From: Brevinematales bacterium
GTDB lineage: Bacteria; Spirochaetota; Brevinematia; Brevinematales; Thermospiraceae
Direction of reading: 5' to 3'
DNA: 64,000 nt
Assembly (NCBI GenBank): GCA_013177995.1
Contig: JABLXN010000002.1
Location: 62,001-126,000, forward strand
The position numbers and the translations under genes were made by a program. Positions 19,374 through 22,686 of this stretch are shown piece by piece; position 1 is the stretch's first letter, and every line of letters begins with the position of its first letter. Under the pieces are notes generated by a model. It did not search any database. It was not told the DNA's origin and worked only from the letters and a program-made list of their open reading frames with translations.

Positions 19374-21806
19374 ATGTCACTTGTATTGTGGATAGGAATT
19401 GGGGCAGCCTTGGGTGGCCTTGCCACTTTGGGAGTGATACGGTTTTTTTTCTCACAGGAGAAGGGGGAGGATAGTTTCTGGTTAGCCAGAATTCTTAATC
19501 TCTATAGACGGGATGTGTCTATTCCGCAGGCCAGCGAGAATCGTGAGGAAATTCTTCAGTTTTTTCAAAGGGTGATGGGATTTCAGTCCTATGAGTTGTT
19601 GAGACTTACGTCTGAAGAGGTTCTGGATGTCAGGCGTTCGGTAGAACTCTCTTTCTCTGGTCTTGCCCCTTTTCTCTCAGAGATTTCTTCCTCTATCTAT
19701 TATCAGCCTGTGGTTTTGTACGATATTGGGCCACTTTCTTCTCTTTTGGCACCAGCGTATTCTTCCCGTTCTCATGTGGTCTGGGTGTATGTTTTGCCAC
19801 TTTATCCCTTTGAGGTGAAATATTTTCTTCTCCTTGTGATGCCAAAGCATGTGCCTGGGAAAAAACAATCTTCTGTGGCAATGTTTCTCATGAGGCAACT
19901 GTTTTTGAATCTCTATCTTGAAGAGGAAACCAAACGGTATCGGGAGAGCCAAGAGTTTTTGTTCAGTGTTTTTAATAAAAATCCTGTGGGGCTTGGGTTA
20001 ACCAATAGAGAAGGGGTTATCCGGAAATACAACCGGGAATTCTTTGATATTGCTGGAGAGATCAAGCGAATTCAGTTTCTGATAGGGGAAGAACAATTTG
20101 AGTTTTTGAAGAGAAATCAACATCTGGATACGTTGAAAAACTATAAGGAATTGTACCTTCATATCAAAGGGGCTCCACTTTATGATGATACGGGAAATGT
20201 CAGGGGGTATATTTTTTCGGTTATCAATGAGACCAAAAGTTATCTTCTCAGTCAGAAGATTTCCCAGAGTGAGGAACAGTTTCGTCAACTTTTTCAGCAA
20301 CTCCCTGTGGGGCTTGTTATCTTTGAACCAACAGGCAAAATTTATCTTGTCAATGAGGCGTTTTTGTTTTTGGTGAATGTGTACAATGAAAAAGAGGTGT
20401 ACCAGAAGAATATTCGGGATATCCTGAATATTAGTGAGACAGATTTTCGAAATATTCTTCAGCAGGTGCAGAGAAATCCTCTTTTGTATTTTCGTTTGGG
20501 GATTCGTCCTGAGTATGGAAACAGGGTTTTTTCTGTTCATATACGACCGCTCTTTTTGGGAGAAAAGGAGGTATTGCAGGCTACCCTTGAGGATGTGAGT
20601 CTTGAGAATGAACTCTATCGTCAGCTTGATGAGAAGTCCCGTCGTGTAGAAGAAGAACTCATGACAGCCAAGAGGGTATGGGAGCATATCCTGACAGTCC
20701 CCACCATTTATAATTCTCGTATTCGGTTTGAGTTTTTTTCTCGACCGTCTTCTCATTTAGGGGGGGATTTCTATGATCTTTTTGCCATAGATGATAATCA
20801 TATCGGTGTCGTGGTTGCAGACGTGTCGGGTCATGGGGTTTCTGCTGCTCTTATTACTTCTATGCTCAAGATTTATTTTGAATTCAATCCCAAGGACCCA
20901 CACAAAATTTCCGATGTGCTACGATATTTGCACTATATTCTCTCCAAGGTGCTTCCCCCGGATCAGTTTGTGACGCTTTTTTATGGGGTGATTGATACAC
21001 AAACCTATTCGATCACCTATATCAACTGTGGAAATCCCAAACCCCTCTATGTTTCCTATCCCAAGAAGAAGATTGGTTTTCTTGAGGGAATGGCTCCTCC
21101 CTTAGGAAGTGCTCATTCGGTGGTGTTTTCGGATTATATTCGGACGGAGAAATTAGGAGAGAATACGCGTCTTCTTTTTTATACAGATGGGCTTTTTGTT
21201 TTTCGCAATGAAAAAGGGTTCTTCAATCAGGAGGGACTTCTTGAACTTTTCTCCCGTTATGCAGAAAATCAGATCAGGCGTGTGCTTCCGGATATCTATG
21301 ATACTCTCTTGAAATCCTATGTACCCCTGACGGAGGATGATGCGACCATGGTGATGATTGTGCTTGAACCACCGCTTCGTACCAAGCAATATCTCTCTCT
21401 TCCCTCTAACGTCCTGGAAATTGATCACGCTATTGTGAAAATTCAGGCGAATATCCAGGCTGTGGTGGATCTCAATGATGATGAAAGGTGGCGGCTCTAT
21501 ACGGCCTTGTATGAGGCACTTATCAACGCTGTAGAACATGGCAACAGATTTGATGCCCAGAAGCGGGTTCATGTTTTCTATCGGATTCTTTCTCAGGCCA
21601 TTGTGATCAAGGTGAGAGACGAAGGCAAGGGCTTTGTCCCGGAGGATGTGCCCGATCCCCTCAGCAAGGAAAATCTTTTGAAACCCTCGGGACGGGGGAT
21701 TTTTATGATGAAGAAACTGATGGACCGTGTCAAGTACAACCGAACAGGCAATGAGGTAGTGATGCTTATGCGTTTTGAAAAACCTGTGTGTGAGGAAGAG
21801 AAGTGA
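19374..21806 (+). CDS. PAS-PAS-SpoIIE phosphatase fused to an RsbW-like HATPase domain
   Basis: The 810-residue protein has one N-terminal membrane helix, an undefined region, and two PAS-like segments (about 195-415). A SpoIIE/PP2C phosphatase follows (GGDFYD, DVSGHG near 482, NCGNPKP, YTDGL, DDATMV). A GHKL ATPase domain of the anti-sigma kinase type ends the protein: N box YEALINAVEHGN near 708, DEGKGF, and SGRGIFMMKKL near 770. Phosphatase and kinase activities in one chain would set the phosphorylation state of the upstream STAS protein. The stop overlaps the rsmH GTG start by 4 bases. The signal sensed is unknown. Confidence 0.92.
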   Translation: MSLVLWIGIGAALGGLATLGVIRFFFSQEKGEDSFWLARILNLYRRDVSIPQASENREEILQFFQRVMGFQSYELLRLTSEEVLDVRRSVELSFSGLAPFLSEISSSIYYQPVVLYDIGPLSSLLAPAYSSRSHVVWVYVLPLYPFEVKYFLLLVMPKHVPGKKQSSVAMFLMRQLFLNLYLEEETKRYRESQEFLFSVFNKNPVGLGLTNREGVIRKYNREFFDIAGEIKRIQFLIGEEQFEFLKRNQHLDTLKNYKELYLHIKGAPLYDDTGNVRGYIFSVINETKSYLLSQKISQSEEQFRQLFQQLPVGLVIFEPTGKIYLVNEAFLFLVNVYNEKEVYQKNIRDILNISETDFRNILQQVQRNPLLYFRLGIRPEYGNRVFSVHIRPLFLGEKEVLQATLEDVSLENELYRQLDEKSRRVEEELMTAKRVWEHILTVPTIYNSRIRFEFFSRPSSHLGGDFYDLFAIDDNHIGVVVADVSGHGVSAALITSMLKIYFEFNPKDPHKISDVLRYLHYILSKVLPPDQFVTLFYGVIDTQTYSITYINCGNPKPLYVSYPKKKIGFLEGMAPPLGSAHSVVFSDYIRTEKLGENTRLLFYTDGLFVFRNEKGFFNQEGLLELFSRYAENQIRRVLPDIYDTLLKSYVPLTEDDATMVMIVLEPPLRTKQYLSLPSNVLEIDHAIVKIQANIQAVVDLNDDERWRLYTALYEALINAVEHGNRFDAQKRVHVFYRILSQAIVIKVRDEGKGFVPEDVPDPLSKENLLKPSGRGIFMMKKLMDRVKYNRTGNEVVMLMRFEKPVCEEEK

Positions 21807-22686
21807 TTTATCATACGCCTATCATGGTTGAAGAGGTGATACGGTTTTTTACCCCGTGTGCGGGGGGGTGTTTGTGGATGCTACCTGTGGGGAAGGGGGG
21901 CATAGTGAGGCAATAGCCTCTCGCCTTGAGTATAAAAGACTCATCTGCATTGACAGAGACCAGGAGATACTGGAGGTGGCCCGAGAGAGGCTTTCTCGTT
22001 TTCCACGGGTGAGTTTCTATCATGCCACCTTTGATCAGCTTCCAGAGGTGATCAAAGACGCGGGAGTTGATGGGTGTGATGCCATTTTGGCTGATCTTGG
22101 GGTTTCTATGTATCATTTTACCCTTCATGAGAAGACAAAGGGAAGGGGATTCAGTCTGCAGGATGATGAGGGTCTTGATATGCGGCTTGACAAAACGGCG
22201 GGTATCACAGCCGCTGAGGTGCTCAATACCTTTTCGCAAAAGGAGATTGCTGATATTCTCTACACCTATGGCGAGGAGTATGATGCCTACAAAATAGCTC
22301 GTGCTATTTGCCAGAATCGACCCTTTCGGACGGCCTCTCAATTAGCGAAAGTGGTTCTCAAGGCAAAGAAAAGTCATGGCCACCACAGGATCCACCCTGC
22401 TACAAAAACCTTTCAGGCTTTGCGAATTTTTTTGAATAAAGAATTAGAAATTCTCGAAAGTTTTTTACCCTCTGCTGCCGATAATTTATATATCCGTGGT
22501 CGTTTAGCGGTGATAACTTTTCACTCGTTAGAAGACAGGATAGTAAAAAGGAGTTTTCAATCACTCGCCAAGGAGGGCAAAGTGAGTATCCTGACCCCAA
22601 AGCCTCTTCTTCCCTCGGAAGAAGAGATCGAGAAAAACCGGGCTTCCCGGAGTGCGAAGCTACGGGTGGTGGAGAAGAGTGTATGA
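21803..22686 (+). CDS. rsmH: 16S rRNA m4C1402 methyltransferase, frame interrupted at a G7 tract
   Basis: The product matches RsmH (MraW), which methylates N4 of C1402 in 16S rRNA. The expected N-terminus MIYHTPIMVEEVIRFFTP starts at GTG 21803, overlapping the previous stop as GTGA. After seven G residues at 21862-21868 the homologous sequence VFVDATCGEGGH continues in the -1 frame, through ITFHSLEDRIVK to the stop. Eight Gs would restore one frame. The in-frame tract reads as a slippery heptamer (G GGG GGG), so -1 slippage could also join the halves. A GTG at 21856 would make a shorter protein missing the conserved HTP segment. Sequencing error, slippage or phase variation cannot be separated here. 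Confidence 0.9.

Follow-up and report, generated by a model that had tools for sequence, protein, structure and literature searches.

A one-base frame break at a seven-G run in a spirochaete rsmH gene, probably an error in the sequence or an ordinary recent mutation

The rsmH gene of the window (the whole 64,000-nucleotide stretch of Brevinematales DNA analysed here) is interrupted by a frame break of one base at a run of seven Gs, and this break is itself present in the assembly. A single unconserved homopolymer break in a conserved gene has the look of an indel of very recent origin or of an error in the sequence. On balance, with a little better than even confidence, we infer a consensus error at a chance homopolymer. 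Judged from its sequence, the gene would be an ordinary one for the 16S rRNA C1402 N4-methyltransferase, assembled one base short.

The gene starts at a GTG (21803-21805) overlapping the TGA (21804-21806) of the upstream SpoIIE-type gene, and a good Shine-Dalgarno-like sequence, GAGGAAGAG, lies directly 5' of it. From this start the frame reads VIYHTPIMVEEVIRFFTPCAGG up to the G run, which it enters in the phase G GGG GGG. Read to its end, the same frame gives VIYHTPIMVEEVIRFFTPCAGGCLWMLPVGKGGIVRQ and then stops, departing from the RsmH sequence after the tract, while the conserved core VFVDATCGEGGH (in a longer reading, VFVDATCGEGGHSEAIASRL) is found in the -1 frame and stays open to the TGA at 22684-22686. 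Both coordinates and frames agree exactly with a sequence-only reading of this DNA, which had placed the N-terminus and the VDATCGEGGH core in different frames joined at this heptamer. For the core, the PF01795 match begins at profile position 21 (E 7.7e-92; 308.5 bits against a cut-off of 27) and the TIGR00006 match at position 25 (286.7 bits against a curated cut-off of 154.3); its nearest solved structure is 1m6y, MraW. The window gene has no continuous frame that includes the N-terminal H-x-P-V stretch, which sits in the other frame. A functional truncated RsmH translated from the GTG within the 5' part is unlikely: it has no ribosome-binding sequence at the usual distance and would lose a stretch kept in all the relatives checked. 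The gene overlapping the rsmH stop may encode an FtsL-like protein, as its position suggests.

Table 1. Features at and around the rsmH frame break (positions in the window)
Feature	Position	Strand	Remarks
Upstream gene, PAS + SpoIIE phosphatase + HATPase	19374..21806	+	stop overlaps the rsmH start
5' part of rsmH, start frame	21803..21868	+	VIYHTPIMVEEVIRFFTPCAGG; carries the family's H-x-P-I/V motif; all 31 relatives checked have H-x-[PTS]-[VIM]
GTG, possible gene-caller start of a truncated RsmH	21856..21858	+	no Shine-Dalgarno-like sequence at the usual distance
Seven-G run, -1 frame change	21862..21868	+	
RsmH catalytic core, -1 frame	21868..22686	+	PF01795, TIGR00006; open to its natural stop
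Downstream gene, 122 aa	22683..23051	+	overlaps the rsmH stop; no family match

The genome to which the window belongs (57 contigs, 2.38 Mb, estimated to be 100% complete) holds rsmH as a single copy; a second, intact rsmH was looked for elsewhere in this genome and none was found. The RsmI gene is present and complete. In E. coli, RsmI carries out the 2'-O-methylation of the same nucleotide as RsmH, C1402.

Comparison with relatives places the break in this one sequence. In the closest relative compared (G002, about 73% identical in DNA at the rsmH region), rsmH is unbroken, with 295 codons and both parts in one frame, and the continuous frame PCSGGVFVDATCGEGGH carries the same flanking residues as the window gene. 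At the position of the tract it reads TGTAGTGGGGGTGTTTTT, with at most five Gs and no run of seven. This comparison, proposed in the sequence-only reading, shows no conservation of the tract. Among the 31 relatives with a readable motif, all 31 have the N-terminal H-x-[PTS]-[VIM] motif, and the longest G run at the tract position is one to five bases. In a scan of the phylum, rsmH was found in 236 of 247 genomes; among the matches listed (about 150), all but the window gene start at profile position 1-4, contig-end fragments aside, and the window gene starts at 21. Restricted to near-complete genomes, rsmH is found in 177 of 182, and the five lacking a PF01795 match are G001, G095, G097, G120 and G162. 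The first of these, which is of the same genus as the window's genome and 98% complete, also lacks the metallophosphoesterase and the close SpoIIE orthologue that flank rsmH in the window. Its lack of rsmH reflects either a missing piece of assembly or loss of the cluster.

Selective constraint on the gene is also normal. Between the window and G002, the rsmH core after the tract has a dN of 0.149 and a dS of 1.93, giving a dN/dS of 0.077, and the two neighbouring genes give 0.092 and 0.103; these ratios are rough, with synonymous sites near saturation, and the rsmH value is for the core only, the 20 codons before the tract being too short a stretch to give a meaningful one. The core shows no decay, and the gene is not an old pseudogene. 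Because constraint is the same as in the neighbouring genes, the break is either recent or not real.

How often such breaks occur was gauged by comparing stretches of the two genomes over about 77,000-79,000 aligned residues, in which loci overlap and pairs are partly double-counted. Three breaks were reported in the window's genome, but one of them arises only because the orthologous gene of G002 is broken, leaving two, rsmH included. The other lies at a run of seven T/A in a second SpoIIE-type gene (L205, 15283-17423, on contig C16), which a dispersed repeat of some 520 bases, 90-92% identical to copies in L060 and L196, cuts short as well; this gene is apparently a true pseudogene in real decay. 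The single-contig G002 assembly has five distinct frame-broken genes that are intact in the window's genome (L169, L170, L179, L180 and L188), which are either errors or pseudogenes. With two breaks in one assembly and five in the other, isolated single-gene breaks are therefore ordinary in both.

We also took a census of G/C runs of at least seven in the window's genome, reading 89 unique runs among the matches listed, which are most of the genome's runs, with their surroundings. A coding-like open frame crosses 77 of the 89 (the rsmH core frame counted in), and 12 are in sequence with no clear coding frame. Besides rsmH, no gene was found broken at any of these 89 runs. Apparent same-strand frame shifts at the G7 runs in L103, L145 and L148 proved to be natural gene ends or starts beside the next gene. 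A general tendency of the assembly to undercall G runs was likewise considered, and the other 88 runs among the matches listed give no sign of it.

These observations bear differently on an error and on a real loss. According to the favoured account, the G run would have arisen by chance from Ala-Gly-Gly codons and the consensus would have lost one base at this homopolymer, so that the organism's own rsmH would be intact. In its favour are the unbroken frame of G002, the normal starts of the other matches listed, the constraint on the core, the single copy alongside a complete RsmI, and the other single-gene breaks in the two assemblies. A survey of prokaryotic frame transitions expects homology-validated singletons to be sequencing errors and not genuine indels (PMC3711429). 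Counting against an error are the lack of any other break at the 89 G/C runs listed and the apparently real decay behind the second break. Alternatively, this strain or population may have lost rsmH function through a real and recent one-base deletion, in which case its cells would lack m4C1402, or make a little truncated or frameshifted enzyme, at a mild fitness cost. We regard this as possible, if distinctly the less probable of the two. It fits the good quality of the assembly elsewhere, and it draws on B. subtilis, which can do without RsmH: there, a frameshift in mraW caused by spontaneous insertion of a G was selected as a suppressor, and deletion of mraW leaves sporulation efficiency unaffected in otherwise wild-type cells (PMC13317604). 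The five near-complete genomes that lack a match point the same way, but in G001, the one belonging to the same genus, the absence coincides with missing neighbours and may be an assembly gap; the presence of rsmH in the remaining near-complete genomes and its lack of decay argue against a real loss. The premise of the sequence-only reading that the gene should be functional is accordingly insecure, given the tolerance of B. subtilis for rsmH loss (PMC13317604) and the phylum genomes with no match. Consensus error nevertheless ranks as more likely than real recent loss, because rsmH is nearly universal and under constraint, and real loss is kept well alive because the assembly is clean at its other G runs.

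The sequence-only reading had left open an assembly indel, ribosomal or polymerase slippage and a phase-variable switch. The first is the best supported of the three, and a real recent indel comes next. On the second, full-length RsmH would come from a -1 shift of the ribosome or from slippage of the polymerase at G GGG GGG, and a slippery X XXY YYZ heptamer is indeed present in the right phase at 21862-21868. Yet at least 16 other coding G7 runs in the window's genome have the same phase in genes that need no frame change. The genome contains 125 overlapping G7 matches on both strands, and a simple composition estimate (with a coding-strand G frequency of about 0.27, derived from GC and skew) lies somewhat above this number; observed matches are thus at or below those expected, and there is no G7 excess. 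Compared with shuffles, three windows folded around the tract show no extra stability (z -0.23, 0.22 and -0.46, pseudoknots left out) and hence no excess structure downstream, no Shine-Dalgarno-like stimulator was found at the usual distance from the tract, and the heptamer is conserved neither in G002 nor in the 31 relatives or the phylum-scan matches listed. Because there is no excess and no structure, and because phased heptamers occur in unbroken genes, the tract is marked as a recoding site by its phase alone. The description of the tract as a slippery heptamer is thus right about the phase, but such heptamers are no commoner than chance predicts. Very low-level frameshifting at a G run is known in herpesvirus thymidine kinase mRNA (PMC5009743), and residual RsmH from low-level slippage is possible in principle; as the source of full-length enzyme, slippage seems improbable.

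The remaining option, a slipped-strand phase switch turning 16S rRNA methylation on and off, is slightly less probable still. Its appeal lies in the place of the tract, about 20 codons after the rsmH start, a position typical of phase-variable genes. Poly-G phase variation is also known in a spirochaete, Treponema pallidum (PMC7864442). Seven Gs, however, are short for a switch, and a phase-variable locus would be expected to have its tract conserved or recurrent in relatives, or to be one of several in the genome; here neither G002 nor the relatives checked have it, G runs are not in excess in the genome, and no other G run among those listed was found at a gene frame break. RsmH is moreover cytoplasmic, whereas the known cases are mostly surface-exposed (PMC3711429). 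A literature search on mraW with phase variation or homopolymeric tracts found nothing. A population with mixed tract lengths, in which a fraction of cells would lack m4C1402 and translate differently and 16S rRNA methylation would be phase-variable, appears very improbable. Phase switching and recoding, even taken together, are unlikely. The most likely cause of the break is an error in the sequence or an ordinary mutation of recent date, ahead of a regulated switch at this tract.

Were the tract a true switch or recoding site, ribosome modification would be heritably or translationally variable, and we know of no example of such variation. As matters stand, the finding serves chiefly as a warning: phased G heptamers are common in the G-rich coding sequence of this genome and on their own give no indication of recoding.

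Among known systems, the window gene resembles RsmH/MraW (TIGR00006, PF01795) in the full-length match of its core, the N-terminal H-x-P-I, the VDATCGEGGH motif and its single genomic copy, and differs in the break of one base that separates its N-terminal stretch from its core. With the poly-G phase-variable genes of Treponema pallidum it shares a G run early in the gene and a frame break; in contrast to those genes, its tract is short, unconserved and in a housekeeping gene, and no such family of tracts was found in the window's genome. The B. subtilis mraW case (PMC13317604) is alike in that a single G indel disrupts rsmH. There, the change is an insertion at position 597 that arose under selection and whose loss of function was tested, whereas the window gene has one base too few near codon 22.
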